Below are positions 4,250-45,700 of a DNA stretch of 64,000 nt, piece after piece. This DNA comes from Sanghuangporus weigelae (taxonomy: Eukaryota; Basidiomycota; Agaricomycetes; Hymenochaetales; Hymenochaetaceae). The stretch lies in NCBI GenBank assembly GCA_033182465.1, contig CP137318.1, positions 806,001-870,000 of the forward strand, given 5' to 3'. The notes under the pieces are model-generated. The model saw nothing but the letters and a program-made list of their open reading frames with translations, did not search any database and was not told the origin of the DNA. The first letter of the stretch is position 1; the number at the start of each line of letters is the position of its first letter. The position numbers and the translations under genes were made by a program.

Positions 4250-7200
4250 TCAGAAACCAGCAGCTTCAAGGCCCCTCCTAATATCCGCCTGAGAAACCTC
4301 GTTCATCAGGAGCTCCTGACTCCTCGTCCAGAAATACGAAGCGTCCCGACTCTTCGCATTAGCAATCGTCAGCTGCTCGTTAATAAAACCCACAATCGCA
4401 GGGTTCTCCGAGATGTTGATATTGCCACTACCGTTTAGAGGCTTCGATTGAAAACGCAGGATGGCGCGTACGGCGTCGTACCATTTCTGGCGCTTGACGA
4501 AGTTGATGAGCGGTGGACCGAGGGGCGCGGGTCCGCTGGAGCTGTAGCTAGTGCTGGAGCTTTGGGTTTGGCAGGTGCTGAAGGATGTGATAGAGTGAGG
4601 GGAGGAGATTGATGAGGAAGGGGAGCCTGAACAGGTATATCTGCCTGTCGTACTGCTGTGCTGCTGGCAGGTTCGCTCAGCTTCTGTAGCTAGGATCGGC
4701 GAAGTCGAGCGCAATGTCCACTGAGTTTTCGACGACAGTGGGAACTGCACGTTATCCTTCATCTGATCCTGAATATGGACGATATCCGTGAGGTATATGC
4801 CGATAAACGGTACGCATGGTCCCTCAATGGCTTGCATCGCCGCTCGGAATGCAGAGAAGTTGCCGGTTGGCTCGTTGAGTTTAGAGAGGTTCTCGAACTG
4901 GTGACTTCGCCCTGTGTGTGCCCATGTCAAGTATAAACGAGAGATCACGGCGCTTGAGAGAGCTGCGACGATGGCGGTCATAGACGAGAAGTTGTTGATA
5001 GACCGGCATTTCTATCCAAAAAATGCTCGTCAGTAAATACATTCAGATGGAGTAGAAGGGAAGCCACAACAGACCTCAGCGACTTTAATCCAATAATCAA
5101 TCGCATCAGCTCTCTTCCCAAGTCCATCATTCGCAAGCACGCTATTCTTCACCCACGCAGCAATGCGATCATGCGTAGCAGAAAACGCACTCAAGTTCGC
5201 GGCGCCTTCACCAGTCTGGTTCTTCGCCCATAATAAGCATTCTCGCGGTCGGATCTTCACATACAATCGATGCTCATATAGCATTAGCTGCGCTGCCAAA
5301 TCGCCTGCGCTGAACCGCGTGAGTTCATTCTTGGATGAACGAGAGTGCTTGCTTTTTGTTGAAGGTGTCAGCGGAAGAGGCGGGAGAAGGGTCGCTTGAA
5401 CCGTTTGAGTTGTCTAAGAAGGAATAAAAAGTCAGTTCTCGGAACAACTCGTACAATGATCTGTGTTGTCACGAACCAATTTATCAATGGACTGCAGAAT
5501 CAACTTCGCAGAAAGTGCCAACGACGGAGGTGCTTTTATCATGCTCAAGAACTCCTTCAATCTCGGCACCACATGCGGATCATCTTGCAGCAGCCCATGG
5601 TTCTCCACCCACATCGTCAAAATAGCCAAGACGCTGAAATTTTACCATCTTAATCGCTTCTCTCGTTGGCACTTAGAACGGTAGTAACTCACCGCTTCTG
5701 GACAGGCCTCAACTTCTTCTCCCTCCACTCATTCGCCTCTTCTCGAGTCAGCGAAGCAGGGTACTCCATCTCAAATCGCTCGATAAGCAGCTGGAACAGT
5801 TCGGATGCAGTCGTGAATGTGCTGAACGTCGTAAGGCAGACATCTCGATGCAGCTTCTCTTCCGTCATCTCTAAATAAAAATAGCAAATAATATACGAAA
5901 AAAGACAACCGATTCAATATGAATACAAGACAGGAGTAATCAAGCACATAACCCGATCAACGGGTACTTACTCAGAGGGTCCGCTGTTAACCTCTCGATG
6001 AGTGCAGGTAACGTCCCAGCGCGTATACTCCCATCGTAGTCCAACTTGATGTCGTCGGGTCCGTACGAAGGCTGGAGATACCAAGGCAAGTTCGCCTGCG
6101 CGACTTTCGCATTATGAAAGGCCTGCGCATCTTCGTCACCCGTCAATTGTCGAACTTTATCCGAACGACGGGGCGTAGAAGGCGGTCGAGCATCATCAAA
6201 GAAGCCAAATTGAAGCTCGTCCGCCCCTGGAGCAGCCGAGTCGGGACAGGGCGAGTCTATGAAGTCCGATAGACGGGAGAGTGATTTGAAGTCGTTCACA
6301 AGAATCGGTCGTCTCCGATATTGCCGAGTATGCAACGGAGAAGAATCGGAGCGACTTCGGTTGAGAGGCGAGCGTGGGGAGGCGCAAGATGGTGAAGGAC
6401 ATATTGGCAGCGGTGGTGTTGGAGGAGTAGGCTTGTTAACTTGTAGAGCCGAGACATCTGGTCGAGTAGGTGTTGGCATGGGATCTAGAGATGATGTTCT
6501 ACCTTTCGTAGGAACCAGCGAGCTATTAACCAAAGTAGCGTCCGAGTCGCTTTCAGTTAAATATGCATCGAACTGCTGTGGGTCTGAACGCGGTGGGCTG
6601 ATGCTCGATAAAGGCGCGACGTCGTCTGGGAAATCTGTTACAAAATGCACCGAATGCGACCGTGAATGTAAGAATGATCCCTAAAGCATAACGGCAGATC
6701 TATCAGTGGGTGTGCGTCGACACAGACAAGTATAGAGACTTTTACCTTTCCTCCGGGCTCTAATATAGGAACCCAGTTGTCATCGTCAATAGCACCATAT
6801 CCATAGGCACCATGAGCAGAGATAGGAGGCATACCCGATTCGAACGAACGTGACGACTCCACAATGAATAGTTTCTCGGCCTCATATTCATATATCCGGA
6901 GCTCCTCTTGGACGCTCATGAGTCTCTCTGCGACCTCGTGCGATAACTCCGCCAGGAACGAGCTTGGCACCCATCCAATGCGGTCATCCCGCAGCGCGGC
7001 CCACCAACCCGACTCTTCCTTCTCTACGATCTCCAGTATCTCATTCTTCCGAAACGGGAGGTGGTCCGGGTCGGACGAGGCAAAGTCGTACAGGCACAGG
7101 ACGTAGCACAATCTCCATTGGGGCGACGCGCTGAGAGGGGTGCGCGATGCGTTGGAGGACATGTCAGTGGGAGGGGAGAAAGAGAAAGACGGAGATGGCG

Positions 7201-7294
7201 AGGAGGAGCGTGGGGAGCTGGGATCGTATCCATCATTCTGAGGTTGGCAATAGTAAGGGTCTATGTGTAAACGCACGCGTTCGCCGCGCATCAT
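4250..7294 (-). CDS. CDC25: SH3-domain Ras guanine nucleotide exchange factor (Cdc25 type)
   Basis: Activates Ras by GDP release, at the plasma membrane, upstream of cAMP or MAPK signalling. The SH3 domain comes first (ALYDF-like LYDFASSDPDHLPF, then GWWAALRDDRIGWVPSSF). A disordered Ser/Pro linker follows. The RasGEF-N (REM) region starts at IRAGTLPALIERLTADPL and continues through FQLLIERFEMEYP. The catalytic CDC25 domain starts at FSAGDLAAQLMLYEH and includes AFSATHDRIAAWV, SSMTAIVAALSS, FENLSKLNEPTGNF and CVPFIGIYLTDI, and ends near LRRGLEAAGF. Introns recognised include those between GGK and GSFLHS (about 6677-6745), before KMTEEKLHRD, before VLAILTMWVE, before TTQTVQATL and before KCRSINNFSS. 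A Ser/Thr-rich stretch lies inside the catalytic domain before LINFVKRQKWYDA. The start is uncertain: ATG at 7294 (MMRGERVRLH) is used; MSSNASRT near 7163 is an alternative, and upstream exons are possible. Confidence 0.88.
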
Positions 7295-8789
7295 CAGTGG
7301 ATCAAAAATAGGCTCGACAGTCGACAGAGCTCTGCGAGTCTGGTTCAAGCGGGTGATCGTGCGTGACAGTGGGAAGAGAGGAGAGCTGCAATGACCGTGA
7401 ACGAGCTGACAGTCGCCAGGAGGAAGACAAGTTCCCCAGCTTTGGAGGACGAGGCCCAATAAAAGGCAGCGAGCAGGCACAGCTTGATGGACTCTCACTC
7501 AGAGGACTGGTGTTGCTAAGAGGGACCGCAAGATCAATTTAGTTTCGCCTCCGTTTCTGGACTGAAATCTGTGCACCATCACCATTACCTCCTTTCGGCC
7601 AAACGCGCATGATCACTCCCGTCTCCTCCCTCCCTGCGGAGAAACACGTCTTGGGCAGGCGTCGCTCAGACAACGCTCTGTTCGCGTAAGCCGACGGAAT
7701 GGAATATACGCCAATACCATTCGTGCTCTTGGGCTGAAGGAGATATGCAAATGGCATAATTTTTACCGAAGGCGAAGTACATCAACACTAATGATGTCGA
7801 ACAGCAAATTTTGTTAGATGTAATCGCAGGGTTACTAGTATCTGCCACAACAATCTAGGAAGACAGAACATATACATACCTCAAGACATGTATATCCGCA
7901 GACTCTCACACGAACTGCATCACCAACTATCCATCCAGATTCCAGATGTTCGAACGACCGCATCTCCGGCATCAAGCATAACAAACTTTACAAGTTACAA
8001 GTTTAGTGCATGGACGCGGACGTCCGAGGCCGCCACGCAACCGGATCGTTCTTGTACCTGACACTGCAAAGTGCACTGAACGATGAGCAGCAGTTGCTTC
8101 CGACACTGGTACCGATGCCGAAGTAGAAACATGATTTTCTGAGCAAAGTAAGCAATGCTCGGAGCTGATGCTAAACGGGGATGAAGGTCAAGGCACCCAC
8201 GGGTGTCCCAAACAAACTCAATCATCATGCCGTCAGCTTCGTCACTCTATCCTTTCGACGTTGGCATAAACCGCGCTGTTTGTTGAGGATCCGCGCCATC
8301 AGATGGAGCGGTGAGATATCATGATGGAGAGAACGCTTGACTATCTACTGCGCATCCTGAAAGTAAAGTTTCTGATAGGGAAAGGATAGATGAACGGAAA
8401 GCCAAGATAACAAAATGATGGACCTGCGACACAATGCTCCGCTGTGATAGAGAAAAATAATTTACATGCATTGAAGGCGGTCCACAAGTTTGTCATGGGT
8501 GATGAATACGAGCGATCGCGTCGCACCGAGCACGGAGTGTTGATTGCGTATAATTATCCTCGCGGAGTAAGAGCAAGCTTGTGTTGTTGCCGAACATTGT
8601 CGGTGCCGGCCAGCGCGTAAGCAGCTAATACAAGAGTTCGTCGCTGTCGTTTCACAAGAGCAGTGCGCGGTTGACGGTCGCGTTCAGCTCGGGGCGGCAG
8701 CCATGTAAGGCAACAACGCTCAGGGTAGCACTAGTCTGAAGTTACTCTTTCCATTCGTCACCTCATCCAAGTAAGACTCAGATGCGCAT
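7295..8789. other. Long divergent intergenic region, RasGEF / LAMTOR2-like
   Basis: A gap of about 1.5 kb between two divergent genes. It probably contains the promoter and leader, perhaps an upstream exon, of the RasGEF gene. Short reading frames occur, but none resembles a known protein or has convincing splice context. Confidence 0.4.
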
Positions 8790-20911: not shown

Positions 20912-21765
20912 CTACGGGACACCCTTCTCCTTCAAGGTTTCGTCCACAACTCTTTTTATCATCGCCTTTATTCCGATATTCCCTTCGTCACTACCGCCGA
21001 GAGCAGCAATGACACTCTTCTCTACGTACTTCCCTATCATATCAACCTCAATGTTCACTTTCTCGCCAACCTGTTTGAGTCCGACCGTAGTCCGTTCACG
21101 CGTATGCTGGATGAGCATAACGCCGAACGTACGCGCAGCGTCATCAACTTGTGTAATTGTAAGCGAAGTTCCATCGATTGCGACATATCCCTTTGAAATG
21201 AGATACTGCTGGACGGATGGGATGGAAGGAGTGGGAGGTGCGAGCTCGAAGAGTACGCGAACGGAATCTCCGTCTGGAGTTCGAGAGACGATCGTAGCCG
21301 TCGTATCGACGTGCGCTTGGACGAAGTGTCCGCCGAAACGTACATGTGCACCCATAGCTCGTTCGAGATTTACTGAGTGTCCGACTTTCCTATCTCCTAT
21401 CTCATAGGAAGTGTACATTGTGTGATCAGAATGCATTCATACACGGAGGGGTTTGCGCACCTAGGTCTGTCCGACTGAGCGTTTCATTCGCTAACCAGAC
21501 TTCAAACCAGCCCCCATCCTTTGCTTCTGAGGGATCAAATGCTGTGACAGTGAGACAAGCACCGTTGACTGCGATAGAGTCGCCAATATGACAGTCTCCC
21601 AGTATTGGCGCAGCGTTCCCGATGGTCAATGTGCATCCGCCTTCATCGCGTTTGATGCTGGTTACGCGTCCAAGATGTTCCACCTGTTTGTTATCCAAGG
21701 TAAGTAAGGTGAGGATTGTAAAAGGCGATAAAAGGCGAAAGGGTACAGACCAGACCAGTGAACAT
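20912..21765 (-). CDS. RIB5: Riboflavin synthase, alpha chain
   Basis: Converts two 6,7-dimethyl-8-ribityllumazine molecules to riboflavin plus a pyrimidinedione, the last step of vitamin B2 synthesis. Two tandem lumazine-binding barrels are visible. Barrel 1 has the diagnostic MFTGLVEHLGRV start and then GDSIAVNGACLTVTAF and WLANETLSRTDLG. Barrel 2 has VGHSVNLERAM, GHFVQAHVDTTATI, GYVAIDGTSLTIT and GVMLIQHTRERTTVG. The first coding exon is only 15 bases (MFTGL), followed by a GT intron and then GTGGAACATC. A second intron splits the Gly of DLGDRKVG. The C-terminus ends TLKEKGVP. It is next to the divergent TAF2 gene; they share about 555 bases of promoter space. Confidence 0.96.
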
Positions 21766-22320
21766 GATATAGAAGTCAAGTCAGGAGGTTCCTTGGGGTA
21801 GGCAAATCATGAGCAGTGAAGGTGAATCACGATATTATCAAGTCATGCGTTGGCCAGGAAGTACAGCAAATATTCGGAAATTAAATTATCTTCTCGTCCC
21901 AATGCCATTCATTTACAAGAAGTTAATAACAGAAAAACGAAACATTAATGAAAGGACAAGGAAAATAATGCTTTAATTTCAACGATTTCAAGAGAAGGAA
22001 AGCGGCACGTGCCGTATATAGTAACTTCGGCTTACTAAGCTCAAGGAACTCCGCGTCACTCTCTTGTCACATCACAACTCTTCCTCCATAGAGCCACGCC
22101 CATCTCGTCCAGGGATACTCAGCTGCGTCTGGCTCTACGATATCGGCGACAAATCGTGTCTACAACTTAGGCCTCGCTTGCAATACACGAAATTATACGC
22201 TTTCTGTGGCTTGCTTTGGGCGTTCTCGTCAACCAGCGAAAGAAAGAAATAGCCAGTAAACTCCTCAGTCGAACAACAAACAAGTAGATTCTTCCCAAAC
22301 GCGTCTTATGCAGCGCGAAC
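21766..22320. other. Bidirectional promoter region, RIB5 / TAF2
   Basis: A gap of 555 bases between divergent starts. AT-rich on the RIB5 side. No clear TATA box; no gene seen. Confidence 0.45.
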
Positions 22321-25300
22321 ATGTCCGCAAGGGTTTCTCTATATAAGTATCCTTTACTTGATTCCAACAAGACGTTGAGGTTGACTCTTTTTCGCGGTAT
22401 ATACTAGTCACCAAAAGGTGGTTCTGGAAATCGACTTCTCGGGCTTGCTCTTCGTACGTTGTCATCTTCATGCCGTGCGTCTCTCTGACCGACGAGTTTT
22501 CATCTGATAGGGTTATACCGAATTGACGATCATACCGACAAGCAAGGACTTGAAGACCATATACCTACACGCTAGGCAGTGCCGTACGTATTGCGCTGTT
22601 TCTTCCTGAGACACCAGGAATGGAATTGACTGCCTTCATATTATGATTTTAAACAGATATCAGCTCGGTTCAAGTAAACGGATACAATGTCCCGGACTGG
22701 ATATGCCACGACCCACTCTCGAACGTTGTCATGTCTGATATTACAGATTGTCACCGCCATCCGGAGGTGAAGCGGAAGTTGTATTCCTCGTTGGCGGAGT
22801 GCGATGAGGGTGAGCTTGCTATACCGCTTCCGCGACAGGTTCATGTGAGAAGTGCGGGGAGCATAGGAGGTCGGCTTAATGGGGATGGTACGTTGAACTT
22901 TCCGCTCTTTCTTTCAGTTTACGTCTGAATCGCTGACTGGTACTTCAGTTGGGACGCCTGATCCCATCGCATCAAGCCAGACGGTCCCTCTTACTCAGCA
23001 GACCTCAGAGTTCTCTTCCATCCAAGTTCGCATCACGTACTGCGTGAAGAATCCTGTTGAAGGCATCCAGTTTGTATTACCGAGCGAGGCATACCCTTAT
23101 GTGGGTGATTTCTACCTTTGTGGGATCGTTCCTAATGCATTCATGTGAAATCTAGCGTGTTCCACATGTATACACCACCCCATCATCTCCTGATGCGGCG
23201 AGATGCTGGGCGCCTTGTCTTGATAATCTTTGGGAGAAATGCACATGGGACTTTGAGTTCATTGTGCCAAAGACTCTTGAAGATACTTCAGGAGGGGCGG
23301 ATGTGGAGAACGATGACAGTACCGTTACACCTACGATCGTTATTTGCAGCGGAGAACTTGTCGAAAAGGTATATCAAATGAGAGACTTCTGAAGTAAAAA
23401 TACTAATGGTGTTTTCAGATCGCTCATCCTAACAACGCGAACAAAGTGATCTACGTATTTTCGCAACCAGTTCTTACTTCCGTGCAGCATATCGCTTTTG
23501 CAGCCGGTCCCTTCATCGTGTATCCTATTCCGACGGACGTAGCCGGACTCTCAGATGAATCTCTCGGCTCTCAGACGCTCATGCATGCCTTCTGCCTACC
23601 GGGCTATGACTCCTATCTGGCGAACACGGTGTCATTCATGCGATCGGCGATGAACTTTTATTCGACCGACTGCGGTTCATATCCGTTTGGTTCGTACAAG
23701 ATAGTATTTGTGGACGAGTTGTTATCGCAGCGATGCGACAGCGCAACTCTGACGATCGTTTCATCGGATCTTTTGCATGGCGAAGATGTGATAGATCAGG
23801 TGTATGAATCTCGCCAGATTCTTATGCATAGTCTTGCATATCAATGGATTGGTATCAACATCATTCCCAAAACGTGGTCAGATCTATGGCTCGTCAATGG
23901 GCTGGGATTGTACATCGCGGGTCTTTGCCTGAAGAAGCTCATGGGGAATAACGAATACCGGTTCCGACTCAAGAAGGACGTTGAACGCGTTTTGGAGCTC
24001 GATAATGGTGCCATGCCGCCTATTTGTCAGCCGAGTAGTGTGGAACCCCCTGATGCATCGAAGCTGGCTTTCATCAACTTGAAAGCTCCGTTAGTACTTC
24101 ATATTCTCGACCGTCGCCTAGGAAAGTCGGGAACGTCTCTCGGTTTATCACGAGTCCTTCCAAAAATCTTCCTCTCCGCGATCAGTGGCGAAATGGCGCA
24201 GAACTGCCTGTCGACGCATTCTTTCCTGCGAACATGCAGGAAGGTCAGTGGTGTCGACCTACGAGCGTTCGTTGACCAATGGATACACGGCAGCGGGTGC
24301 CCTCAGTTCAGTTTCCTTGCGACTTTCAATCGGAAGAAGATGGCTGTCGAAATTCAGATGCGACAGGAATGTCCGGCATATATGATCTATCAGAACGACC
24401 CTGTATCGATGTCGCTTTTGAAGCCTGTTCCGTTCTTCGAGGGACAGATGACTGTGCGGATTCACGAGGCCGATGGAACACCGTACGAACATGTACTAGA
24501 CATCCTAGCTCCGATCAAGCGCTTCGAGGTCCCCTTCAATACGAAATACAAACGCGTACGACGGAACACGAAGCGCTATTTGGCGCGGCAAGCGGCTGCT
24601 CAAGCAGCCGCGGAAGGTGATGCCGAGGCAGTTGAAGCTATGGGTCTAGTCGATATGAGCTTCGGGTTGGAGATTTGGGAGAACGAAGAGGAGCGTGAGA
24701 AATGGAAGGTGATGGACTGGACGGAGGAGGAAGAGCAGACCATGGCGGGCGCGACGTATGAATGGATTAGGATGGACGCTGACTTTGAGTGGATTGCAAG
24801 GATACAGTTCGAGCAGCCGGATTATATGTGGGTGTCGCAACTGCAGCGCGATCGAGACGTGGTTGCACAGGTGGAGGTGGGTGTTTAGTTTCATATAAGA
24901 CAATTCGATTGGATTGATTGGGACATCTTCGAAGGCTGTTCATGCTCTTTCAAGACAAGCGACACCTATCGTGTCTAGTCAACTTACCAAAACTGTGCTG
25001 GTGACAAACTATTTCTTCCGAGTACGATGCGAAGCAGCTTCTGCACTTGTTACAGTGAGTTATATATATTTTTGTCTTTATGCATGCGATTCTTATCACT
25101 GCTCTCGCCTAGTGTGCTACACGAAAGCTTGATTTTGTCGGCCTCTTCCATCTTTTCAAGCTTTTCCTCCGTTATTGCTACGAACCCGAAGATCCATCCC
25201 AAGATCTTTTCTCTCACAAGTTCGTCCCTCGACCAAACGATTTTTCTGATCTTGCAGAGTATTTCGTTCGAAAGGCCAGTTATTGCTGTATTGATTCCGC

Positions 25301-28300
25301 AAACTATTGTTGACATTGGGCTTAGGCGCTTGTCAGTGCAGTTTCACAAGTGCGTCTGGAGAACGGGAAGACTCCGCCTCAGATACGGCAATTCTTCATC
25401 GACCAGCTAAGATATAACGACAACACAACGAACGCGGTATGTTGTAGTGATGATCGCTCATAGACTTCACATACTCATAAAAGTAGTTCTCCGATGCGTA
25501 TTATATCGCCACATTGGTCACCGCGCTTGCCTGTTCCACTGTCTCAACTGTACCTCCCGAGCGCGGGGAGCTGACTTTATCAGTTCCGAAGTTCGAGCAG
25601 AGTGGAGAGGATTATGAGCTTCTTCAGGCTGCCCTCATAGAAGTTGAGAGGTATCGAAGTATGGATCGTCTTATACCGTCCGTTCATAATGTTGTGACTA
25701 TTGCTTCTTTGGAGGTACTGTTTCTATCATTTCTCATGCAGTGACGATGCTGATCATACTTGAATAAGTTCCATATTATGTTGATGATGGCAAACCTTAT
25801 CCCTGGCGATCCGAAGATATTCTTCCTATCAACTCGGGAAGGGAACGCTACGCCAGTTCGTCTAGCAGGCTTCGACGGTCTTTTCTTAACGAAGTGGTAC
25901 ACGCCAAAGATCATGAATTACATACTTGCTGTGGTCGCGAACGATTCGTCGCGCATCGTCCGGCGGCATGTCGCCCGGAGTATGTGCGAGAGCTTGGCAT
26001 TGCTTGCCTCCATTGGAGAAATCAAAGCTCCTACGAAGGAGGCAGAGTCACTACTTATTGAGGAAGACGGGACGTCACCTGATAAAGCGAAGGAGAATAA
26101 GAAGTCAGAGACGGATTTGATGATTCGTGCTCTGAGGAAGGATAGGGAGGTCGGGAAGAGTGAGATCTTGCGGAAGTTCGTGATGCCTGTAGTTCTGTGG
26201 GTGCAGCGTTCTTTTATTGTCGAGACCCGACTGAACTTCATCTGATAGCGACCCGCAAGCTGACATCGAAGTCCGGTTTTGCATGCTTAAGCTAGCGGAT
26301 CTCGTCGTCAGAGGAGCAGATGAACCTTTGCCCAAGAACACCATTCATCTGCCGCCGACGCCCGTGGTTGAAGGCCCTCCGTCTCTCCCAAGTCCTGCAC
26401 CTACGAGCATCAAGATTGCACCCAAATTGTCAAAGCCTCAGATCAAGATCGGTCCAAGAAGATTAAGCCTGCAGACGCCTACTACGGCTACGCCTTCCAC
26501 ACCAGGACCTACGAAGCTTCGCTTAAGTTCTCTTGGTGATACTACAGGCACTCCTGCTCATGCCGAACCCAAGTTCAAGGAACCATTGCCACCTCCGCCG
26601 AGACCGGCTCCGGCGCCGAAGAAGAGGGAGAGACCGGTCCCGAAGGCGCAGGCTATGGGTTTGAACGTTCAGGATCTGAAGGCGTGTCAAGCGGCTCTGA
26701 AGCGCCTCAACAACTGCAAGTCGGCTCGAATATTCTTGCAGCCCGTTGATCCTGTTCGGGACAAAGCTTCTGAGTCAGTCTATTCCTTGTTTGTTGTTTC
26801 AGACACCCATCTTTATGATTATTTCAGCTATTACAACGTCATCAAGTCTCCAATGGACCTGCAGACTATGGGTCATAAGCTCCAGAATGGGATGTACAAA
26901 GACCGCCGCGAGTTTCAGGCGGATTTCCGGCTGATGATCCAGAATTGCAGAACATACAATCCGCCAGGTTCCTACCCTTATGTTGAGTCTGTCTCGCTTG
27001 AAGCCTTCTTTGACAAAGGTATGTGGTTATCATAAACTCTGACTTATTCTGTTTCTAAGGAATTTATAGTCTGGGCGAAGATCAACGCGACAGTTGCATC
27101 GGCAGAGAAAGCTATGCCGAAGCCTGCAGCTCCCGTCGAGCGTCCTAAACCTCAGCCTCCGGTGGTGCACGAACCTGTTCCAGATGTCAGTGCTATCGCT
27201 CCGGAAGTGGTTCCCGAAGCTCCTGCGCCCAAACTCAAACTCAAGCTTGGGTCGCAAGCTTTACCCAATGGGGAAGGGTCAAAGCCTCCGCCGAAGCCCA
27301 AGAAGCCCCGAAAGCTGAAGGCGACCGACATGCCACCTCCGCCGTATATTGATGATGGCTCACATGATTTGTTACAAGAAGTTATTGCCATTGAGGAACT
27401 TGAGAAGTCACCGAACAAGTCTGCGGGTTCGAAGCCACGCAAGCATGTCGAACTTGACGCGGATGAGGAGCTTCTAAGCCTTGCAAGTGCGGAACCGCCG
27501 CATCTAACGTTTGAACGTCCGGAAGTTACAGAAAAGCATCACACTCCGCTACCTCCTCCGACACCTTTACTTGCTTCTCCAAAACCGGCAGTAGCTCCAT
27601 CGAAGACGAAGAGACTAACGGAGAAGCCTATTCACCCCCCGCCTTCGATCAAAGGGAAGGAGAAGGAGAAGGAAGCGGAACACGTTTCGCCTGCTCCGTC
27701 TTCTCAAGTGGCTCAAGTTGCTTCTGGATCGCCTAACAGGTCGAAGGGTGCGACACCTCCGGTTACAACCTCTACGCCTCTCAACGAGGCGAGATGTCGC
27801 GATGTGCTGAAAACCCTTCTGAATATGCCTCAGTCGTTTTTCTTCAGAGAGCCCGTTGATCCGATACGAGATGGTTGCCCGACGTAAGTACTTTGAGCCA
27901 CACGATCTCGTGGCAAAGGCTCACAGATCCTTTCAGATATTACGATGAGATAAAGAATCCTATGGATTTCGGAACAATAGGTGCTCGTCTAAAGAAGGGC
28001 CTCTACTCTACAATGGAGGAGTTTGCAAGCGATATTGAACTTGTCTTCGCCAATTGCCGGCAGTTCAACCCTCCTGGGACACTTCCGGTAATTAATGCCG
28101 AGGCAGTAGAAAAGGTGTTCAAGCGGGAATGGGTGAAGGCAATGGAAAAGAAGCTCTCTTTCAAAGAGAAGCGTGGCCTCATGAGCATCATGACGAGGTT
28201 CATGAGCGATCAAGCGTAAGTCACGCTTTGTGATCGCCGTTCTACTCTTCTGCCGATACTGACGATTTTCTTGTTCCAGCTGGTTTGTCTTCTGGGAGCC

Positions 28301-28637
28301 TGTTGATCCAGTCGCGCTGGGGATTCCGACCTACCACGATATCATTCCTAAGAAAGATGCTCGAGATTTGCGGACGATCCGTAGCAAGCTCGACACGGAC
28401 AAATATGAGTCTATCGACGCTTGGGAAGCGGATATGTACCTCATGGTTGACAACGCTATCAAGTTCAATGCTCTCGAAAGTGAAGTAGGTCAGATCGCTG
28501 TGCGAATGCGGGAGAAGATCCGCGAGGAGTCAGCTCGTATTCGGACTCAAGCTCAGCAACAGAAGAAACGGGCTGCGTCGGGCGATCCACGTGGGAGTTC
28601 TGAGCACCTTGGCGCGAAGAAGCCCAAGTTGAGCTAA
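22321..28637 (+). CDS. TAF2: TFIID subunit TAF2 with three C-terminal bromodomains
   Basis: TFIID subunit that contacts promoter initiator DNA, here fused to acetyl-lysine readers. A 26-base first exon (MSARVSLY) splices into HQKVVLEIDFSGLLF, the TAF2 start. The M1-peptidase-like body follows: YTELTIIPTSKDLKTIYLHARQ, RCWAPCLDNLWEKCTWDFEF, HIAFAAGPF, YPFGSYKIVFVDEL and the inactive hinge region LAYQWIGINIIPKTWSDLWL, where the HEXXH zinc motif is absent as in TAF2. HEAT-like repeats run to about 26,300. A Pro-rich linker leads to bromodomain 1 (VIKSPMDLQTMG, NCRTYNPPGS), bromodomain 2 (EIKNPMDFGTIG, NCRQFNPPGT) and bromodomain 3 (FWEPVDPVALG, NAIKFNALESEVG). The acetyl-lysine Asn is present in each (26958, 28066, 28467). 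It ends LGAKKPKLS. About fifteen introns; roughly 1,800 residues. No stop or promoter-like break separates the halves. Confidence 0.9.
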
Positions 28638-42732: not shown

Positions 42733-45700
42733 ATGCCTGTTCGTGTCCTTCGTCCTTCCTTGCCTGACAGACTCGTTCAAGCGGATAGCGACACAAGGTC
42801 AAAGAAGGCTTTGAGGTCCATCTTTGGGCTACATTCATCTACGAGCACAGATATCTCTACTAGTACAGCGAGCCCATCGCCCAACCACATCACTATCGAA
42901 TCGCGCAGCGCGCAATCATCCAAGGAGAAAGAGAAGTTCAGTACTGTCAAAGAACGTAACAGCGTCGACGTAGCAGGTACCGGTAGTGGCTCCAATTTCG
43001 CATCTCTCAGCCACAGTCAGAGAGAACCACGAGATCGCAACGGCCGCGCTAGCGTCGCTGACGTTTCTTTCTTCCAGCAAACACCTATGCCCTCTACCCT
43101 GTCTTTGAAACCCACCAACAGCTCAGTATCAACGCCCGAATCGTATCAAAGGACGACGGCCCTGACGTCGCCCAGCAGGAAGTCGAAAATGACGAGGGCG
43201 CAGGAGATGCCTCTTGAACGCGCTACTCGGCGCAAGCTGGTCCGCATTGACGCTCAGGAAGGACCATGGAGTGTTAGCGTTGCTGAATCACCTTATGATA
43301 GGAGCAATTACAGCATATACATCAAGAGTGCGTTTACTTCTTTATTGTTACTCTTTGTAGTCGTCGTGTGCGACGGAAGGAGCTTGCTGTAATTCCGAAA
43401 TTCAGTGCCTGGTGGGGATACAGCCTTCCTTTAACACTCACGGGCGGTGCTGCATTACTTTGTTTCATTCTTCGTTTCCGTTTTGCTCTATGCACGCGAC
43501 CAACTATCCAGTGCACGCCTATGGATCTTCTAATTACGTAAAACTCCATCGCATATGCGCACTTGCGCCTTTATCACTTCGTTTTCAAATCTTCTTTGTT
43601 CTCTCGTCCCTCTCCTTTGTCGGATATTAATTTGACTGATCCGCCATCCCTTTTAGCACTCACACACCATATGACGCTCACAAGGTCTAGCCAAGAAATC
43701 CTGGCTCTGCATCGAAAGCTTGTTTCCGCCCATCCTGAACTCACCTTACCCGACCTTCCTCTTCGGAATCCCGACGAACCTGTAGAGAGCGTTTTGACAG
43801 ACAAGAAACGCAAATCTTCTTTCCTTCACACTCTTTCCCGTTTCGCTACGCCGGGTCCGAATAGGAGAGATCGTCCGAAGGACGTGATAGTAGCTCACTC
43901 AACAACAAGCTCGAGAACTAGCATGGCCAGTGGCGGACAACCGGAAACACCCATTTCGATGACCACTTCGGCAACCTTGCCTTCAAAGGAGTCGGAAGCA
44001 TGGGATCCTTATGTGTCCTCCCTTACAGCACCCGACGCAAACAGCGCGTTAAGTACGGCACTTGCGGGCTATTTAACGACTCTCGCGAATGAGCCAGCTC
44101 TAAAGCATTCCAAGGCATGGAGGCGTTTTGTGCGGATTCGAGCCGACGATTTGATCAGCGAACGCATAGAAAGAGCTGTAAAGCGCGTAAGAAGCGATTT
44201 GGCGGCGCATTTATCCGCAGCGAAGTTCCAGCCCAAAAAAGCTGAGATGCGAGATGATGCTTCCCTGGCTGAATCGGCTGTTTTAATCGAACCAGAGAGG
44301 GACCAGGACACCAAGGAATCTAGCCATACCTCAGGACTGATCGAAAATATTAAGGAAGAGGAAGAAGAAGATGTTGCGACAGCAGAGAACATGTCTGTGA
44401 AGAAGGATGAAGGAATCGAGTGTGCTGCGCAGGACCTCCCTGGAACTCCTCGGCCTTCGGACACTACGCGCAGTTCTCTAGATATCCCAGAATCCGTATC
44501 GACTCCGACGGAGACTAATACCACGCTCGCAAGTCGGATACCCCGCTCACAGTCGGCTGACCCAGACAAAGCCACTCGTATGTCTCGACTACTGCAATTA
44601 TCGTCAATGAAGAACGACGGCGATGAATCTGCTGCAGAGTACGAAAGTGAGGCACAGATAGAGACTGAAGTTGAAGAAGCGAGGAGCACGACGACCGCGG
44701 ATGACGATTCGTCCTTGTCGACTACTGATCGCCAGCGAAGGCCAAAACGTTCCAAGTCGGCTCGTCTTAGAGAAAGGGCAAAGAAAGCAAAAGAAGCGAA
44801 GAAAGTAGCTATTGACGATTTCGACATGATGCGCGTACTTGGAAAGGGCTGCGCTGGAAAGGTCTTACTCGTGCGGCATAGGAAATCCGAGAATATTTAT
44901 GCTTTGAAGGCAATCACAAAACGTCATGTCCTTGCGCATCAGGAGTTGCAGCATACCTTGACTGAACAGGCTGTCCTAAAACGCATGGCCCGCGAGGGGA
45001 AGGATCCATTTGTCGTGAAGTTGTGGTGGTCATTCCACGATAAAGAAAATTTGTACCTTGTCATGGACTTCCATCCCGGTGGGGACCTCGCAACTCAACT
45101 TGCGCGATGGGGCCGGCTTGGACGTGACCGTGCAAGGTTCTACGCCGCAGAGATTGTCGACGGCGTGGACGGATTGCATGCGGCAGGCGTGATCTATCGC
45201 GATCTGAAGCCGGAGAATATTTTGATTGGTGCAGATGGGCACATCGTGCTTACTGATTTCGGTCTTTCAAAAGAATTCCCTCGACGGACATCTCCTATCA
45301 CAGCTCCTGCGACCCCTTCGGGTTCTCGAACCGATTTCCACGCACAACAACCGCTCCCGCATTGGATGAAAGGCGAGGAGAATAAAGCTGTTTGGCCAAT
45401 TGGTCAGGCCGATTCTACAATGACGTTCTGCGGTACTGCGGAATATCTCGCGCCCGAGGTCATCCAGGGCGAGCCATATAGCTATGAGGTTGACTGGTGG
45501 AGCTTCGGAACAATGTTGTTTGAGATGCTCACGGGCATCGTAAGTGCATAGTGTGTATGTCTGTTCGGTGTCTGACTCTTTTTATAGACACCATTCTGGG
45601 CGGACAATCATGCTGACATGTATTGTCGAGTGCTCAAAGACGAACTCAGATTCCCCTCAGATAGAGTCTTTGACCAGGATACCAAATCGCTTATCCGTGG

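Follow-up and report, generated by a model that had tools for sequence, protein, structure and literature searches.

The question raised by this locus of Sanghuangporus weigelae is from which of its subunits TFIID takes the ability to read acetylated nucleosomes. In TFIID, which is one of the general transcription factors, the histone readers are TAF1 and TAF3 in animals and Taf14 and Bdf1 in budding yeast. In the window, by which we mean the whole 64,000-nt stretch of DNA that was analysed, the preliminary description had noticed a TAF2 reading frame running on through short introns into three bromodomains. We consider it likely that the sole TAF2 found in this genome, which carries behind its TAF2 part a flexible linker, a bromodomain, a long linker and a close pair of bromodomains, supplies the acetyl-reading of TFIID; for this we infer that the gene gives a single transcript, that the protein is built into TFIID and binds acetyl-lysine, and that it replaces the other readers functionally.

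The TAF2-bromodomain gene is located at positions 22321-28637 of the plus strand, as modelled from an open splice and Pfam. The joining of its 17 exons gives 5,415 nt encoding a product of 1,804 residues with a single terminal stop and no internal stop, and the sizes of the 16 introns range from 50 to 73 nt, which bears out the continuous frame noticed before. The start of the gene model (HQKV...) aligns with the TAF2 N-terminus. GT-AG borders were obtained for 15 of the 16 modelled introns, the exception being intron 9, which is distant from the point of fusion between TAF2 and the bromodomains. For intron 9 (25266-25325) the best fit is GC-AG with the donor GCCAGT; an alternative in-frame GT-AG donor, 9 nt upstream, costs three residues. 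As to the other genes in the window, a putative riboflavin synthase gene, so named from its sequence, adjoins TAF2 on the minus strand (20912-21806), and a large open frame on the plus strand (43542-45551) ends in a putative AGC-type protein kinase domain.

Similarity to TAF2 spans the product up to about residue 1023, and the three bromodomains lie downstream. Pfam and the alignments to TAF2 chains of the PDB place most of the aminopeptidase-like and Ig-like region in exon 7 (23419-24876, plus strand), while exons 8-12 (24935-26196, plus strand) encode the C-terminal helical repeats (residues 734-1082; TPR_TAF2_C). When the whole protein was scanned against Pfam, Peptidase_M1 (PF01433) matched residues 333-535 (E 1.8e-10), TAF2_3rd residues 539-714 and TPR_TAF2_C residues 715-1015; the match to Peptidase_M1_N falls under its cut-off. 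The Ig-like and C-terminal repeat domains specific to TAF2 are both present (PF25316, E 1.2e-28; PF25577, E 3.7e-46). The best PDB relative of this part is the Taf2 chain 6hqa (E 2.5e-136), whose best stretch reaches residue 1023; the other is a chain labelled TFIID subunit 2 (E 9.7e-80), presumably the human one. The zinc site in exon 7 is broken, with HSLAY in place of HExxH, presumably the zinc-site motif of the aminopeptidase fold; judged from its sequence, the TAF2 part has an aminopeptidase-like fold that is catalytically dead. Searches with exon 7 gave 5 pattern matches in viral_contigs and 12 in genome_contigs, none of them a relative; these collections hold viral and prokaryote sequence and have no bearing on fungi.

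Whether TAF2 and the bromodomains belong to one gene depends on intron 12 (26197-26248, plus strand), a 52-nt intron of the form GTGGGT...GATAG, the removal of which joins the two parts with the frame kept. If it is left unspliced, the TAF2 frame stops at 26245, and the locus could then be read as two neighbouring genes, one for a TAF2 that ends there and, just beyond it, another for a three-bromodomain protein, in which case the choice of introns would have produced the joined model as an artefact. The junction itself gives such a reading some room, as two pieces taken from around it matched no Pfam family when scanned singly and residues 941-1130 matched no TAF2 chain in the PDB. However, the bromodomain frame is open already from 26235, upstream of the 26245 stop, and is in frame with TAF2 across an intron whose size and splice sites are ordinary. 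The first ATG of the bromodomain frame, at 26283, would allow 37 nt between the genes, into which a terminator and a promoter would have to fit. A report on Cryptococcus neoformans, in the part available, also implies that one gene encodes both TAF2 and a bromodomain (PMC12844337). We regard the two-gene reading as very improbable; TAF2 and the bromodomains would be expressed as one transcript. The only PDB match of residues 941-1130 was a weak one to dephospho-CoA kinase (E 0.021), and a scan for bacterial promoters and terminators is uninformative for a fungal gene.

Exon 13 (26249-26773, plus strand) connects the TAF2 side, by way of a linker rich in Pro, with the first third of bromodomain 1. 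It contains no stop in the TAF2/bromodomain frame, 7 and 6 stops in the other plus-strand frames, and 5, 13 and 4 in the minus-strand frames. Among 2,000 dinucleotide shuffles of this exon, the TAF2/bromodomain frame was open in 4 and any of the three frames in 8. For the stretch 26246-26654 alone, some frame was open in 37 of 2,000 shuffles; the linker by itself is therefore weak evidence of coding, a point that falls on the side of two genes.

When the whole protein was scanned, Pfam matched three of its stretches as bromodomains (E 1.8e-57). Scanned singly, bromodomains 1, 2 and 3 gave E values of 1.3e-22, 3e-19 and 1.5e-16 and scores of 80, 69.2 and 60.6 bits, respectively, the family cut-off being 21.7 bits. 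All three lie on the plus strand and each is split by an intron: bromodomain 1 (26685-26984; Pfam residues 1229-1310) by intron 13 (26774-26827), bromodomain 2 (27795-28099; residues about 1564-1647) by intron 15 (27884-27936) and bromodomain 3 (28181-28499; residues about 1675-1759) by intron 16 (28216-28279). Bromodomains 2 and 3 adjoin closely, and bromodomain 1 is set off from them by a linker rich in Pro and Lys (27070-27794, plus strand), which in the spliced translation counts about 250 residues including the end of exon 14. The term "three tandem" bromodomains used in the preliminary description thus suits the close pair 2 and 3 but not bromodomain 1. An NCBIfam scan of bromodomain 1 returned no family, which is uninformative for a fungal gene.

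To judge the binding pockets, the three domains were aligned to BRD4 and the codons checked; the names of the pocket residues and the L92/L94 numbering are what we take to be those of BRD4. The acetyl-lysine Asn and the Tyr of the ZA loop are retained in all three domains. The Asn codons are 26958-26960, 28067-28069 and 28467-28469; the first and the third are where they had been placed before, and the second, previously put at 28066, has to be moved by one position, since the CAA at 28066 spans two codons. PVDP occurs in every one of the ZA loops, as had been described. In the alignments as printed, RIF, FFF and FVF stand in place of the WPF shelf of BRD4 domain 1 in bromodomains 1, 2 and 3, respectively, and the positions L92/L94 are D/A in bromodomain 1 and D/C in bromodomain 2; bromodomain 3 is without the usual PMD and has KKDARD in its place. 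Because the WPF shelf is missing and, in bromodomain 3, PMD is lost, binding may be weak or absent in one or more of the domains. The changed shelf, the D/A and D/C positions and the lost PMD would suit a real fusion in which the bromodomains serve mainly as structural or protein-binding modules and read acetyl-lysine weakly or not at all, but every one of the domains retains the Asn and Tyr of the pocket and scores far over the family cut-off; we hold such a role to be unlikely. On these residues, the bromodomains of TAF2 would be expected to bind acetyl-lysine.

Overlapping bromodomain 3, a match to DUF7877, a Pfam domain of unknown function, was observed (28280-28547; residues 1713-1775), with 28.6 bits in the whole protein against a cut-off of 27 and 17.8 bits on the piece with bromodomain 3 alone. 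Since a match just above the cut-off lies over bromodomain 3, DUF7877 may itself be a family of divergent bromodomains.

As for the origin of the three domains, introns 13 and 15 cut the same aligned codon of bromodomains 1 and 2, both in phase 2, the split codon being that of the 11th residue from the P of PVDP. This shared site and phase suggest a duplication; bromodomains 1 and 2 are probably duplicates of each other, and bromodomain 3 is more divergent. A tree built from 14 bromodomains found in the S. weigelae genome, some of them partial, gave bromodomains 1 and 2 as sisters with a support of only 0.204, and bromodomain 3 grouped with the BRD8-like domain (0.782). The tree leaves the duplication undecided, and the intron site and phase are the better hint. 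By pairwise identity, bromodomains 1 and 2 are closest to Gcn5 (43% and 41%) and bromodomain 3 is closest to Bdf1 domain 1 (35%); neither these nor the tree supports point to any one donor, and none is named.

The other readers of the genome were sought by profile searches over the 33.9 Mb of its 13 contigs; the 14 genomes that served as controls gave no match, which has no bearing on fungi. Bromodomain matches were found in 15 places belonging to 10 loci, three of the places being in TAF2 and two in Bdf1. By our reading of their sequences, the remaining eight loci are putative Gcn5, Spt7, Snf2/Sth1, Rsc4-like, Rsc1-like, Nto1/BRPF-like, BRD7/9-like and BRD8-like genes.

TAF1 was located at C1:1416576-1418153, and its spliced end gives the zinc knuckle CGHCGQMGHMKTNRKC (Cx2Cx4Hx6C). 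No bromodomain follows the knuckle, the protein ends 99 residues past it, and all 15 bromodomain matches are located elsewhere than at this locus. The reader modules sit on TAF2, as the preliminary description had said, and a TAF1 with bromodomains in the same genome, which it had named as a refuting result, was looked for and not found. This bromodomain-free end agrees with the available part of a study of fungal TAF1, according to which conservation stops 3 residues past the zinc knuckle (PMC5854669). Human TAF1 resembles the S. weigelae TAF2 in being a TFIID subunit with a close pair of bromodomains (in bromodomains 2-3 here the two Asn are 112 residues apart; in the TAF1 chain 3uv5 the distance from one matched start to the next is 123 residues), but differs in that the pair is here carried by TAF2, together with a third bromodomain, and TAF1 has none.

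The genome also has a separate BET/Bdf1 gene, which combines two bromodomains with an ET domain, and both BET-type ET matches of the genome are at its locus. TAF2 need therefore not be the only source of bromodomains near TFIID. The yeast Bdf1 bromodomains read acetylation and are linked to TFIID, according to the part of the source available (PMC1199594). One might accordingly suppose that TAF2 works outside TFIID in this fungus and that Bdf1 provides the bromodomains of TFIID, as has been proposed for yeast. However, the genome-wide search with TPR_TAF2_C gave a single match, at the TAF2-bromodomain locus; since one TAF2 locus was found, its product is the only candidate for the TAF2 of TFIID, and we give the Bdf1 explanation little credit. 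The TAF2-bromodomain protein would thus be the one that assembles into TFIID. It differs from BET/Bdf1 in that the latter is a separate gene here and in that Pfam detects no ET domain in TAF2.

In yeast, Taf14 is recruited by the C-terminus of Taf2 (PMC6220335, PMC9177701) and uses its YEATS and ET domains to bind the Taf2 tail (PMC9177701), as far as the accessible parts of these papers go. The two systems have in common that an acyl-lysine reader is attached to TFIID at the C-terminal tail of TAF2, but the readers here are part of TAF2 itself and are bromodomains instead of YEATS domains, and no gene resembling Taf14 was detected. The two YEATS matches of the genome fall in one gene (L023, about 1869-2844; C4:1383581-1383962), whose tail reads as a coiled coil, in appearance presumably of the Yaf9/GAS41 type, with no ET family match. 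A search made exon by exon in six frames, and run without a known Taf14 as control, could miss a fragmented gene combining YEATS and ET, so that the absence is provisional; the S. weigelae genome may be without Taf14.

The tail of TAF1 (L013, minus strand, about 4649-8246; C1:1.416-1.419 Mb) was seen to be rich in Pro and Ser and to finish in KVKLKLSKS, which is like an ET-binding motif. The TAF2 linker holds LKLKL and the TAF1 tail VKLKL, both resembling hxhKh, to which the ET domain of Taf14 binds according to the parts available of two papers (PMC9177701, PMC7442819). An ET-binding motif in the TAF2 linkers was nevertheless rejected: the seven-residue form, as coded for the search, is absent, and the count of the shorter form was equalled in 1,270 of 5,000 shuffles of the two linkers.

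In the available part of the C. neoformans report mentioned above, published in 2026, tBLASTn with Spt7 gave four loci, three of which, including CNAG_03273, aligned through the bromodomain only, and CNAG_03273 is named in passing as the TAF2 orthologue (PMC12844337). The likeness to our gene is that of a TAF2 orthologue picked up via its bromodomain; the difference is that this part of the source is silent on a fusion and on the number of bromodomains, against three here (PMC12844337). On this report, the TAF2-bromodomain architecture is not unique to S. weigelae (PMC12844337). By name, CNAG_03273 occurs in the open-access literature in PMC12844337 only. The phrase 'TAF2 bromodomain' was found in no open-access paper, and among the matches listed in the open-access literature, a scope with subscription papers mostly outside, no paper appeared to have TAF2-borne bromodomains as its subject. 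A three-bromodomain TAF2 is probably visible in the sequence databases already, and the literature on TFIID evolution may already describe this architecture. The spread of the fusion across fungi rests on the literature only. In the S. weigelae genome, 23 matches to the fungal peroxidase extension family and 66 to DUF6534 were counted, both of which are features of Agaricomycetes. As C. neoformans, a Tremellomycete, seems to share the architecture, the trait probably dates from early Agaricomycotina, and the fusion is probably old in this group.

The way in which such a protein would act can be outlined as follows. The TAF2 body would take its place in TFIID as in yeast and animals, touching core-promoter DNA, and the C-terminal tail would extend to neighbouring nucleosomes and bind their acetyl-lysines. 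TAF2 would thereby give TFIID the acetyl-reading for which animals use TAF1 and budding yeast uses Taf14, the simplest reading being that the TAF2 lobe would read acetylated nucleosomes directly. For the Agaricomycotina as a whole we put forward, with somewhat less than even confidence, that the acetyl-lysine reading of TFIID may have moved to TAF2, where up to three bromodomains would replace both the double bromodomain of animal TAF1 and the YEATS protein Taf14 of budding yeast, so that nucleosomes would be read from the TAF2 lobe that contacts promoter DNA. The three-bromodomain tail would be a rearrangement made by nature, with which one could ask if acetyl reading is important to TFIID as such and if it makes a difference where the reader lies relative to promoter DNA; results obtained on yeast TFIID may not transfer unchanged to mushrooms.
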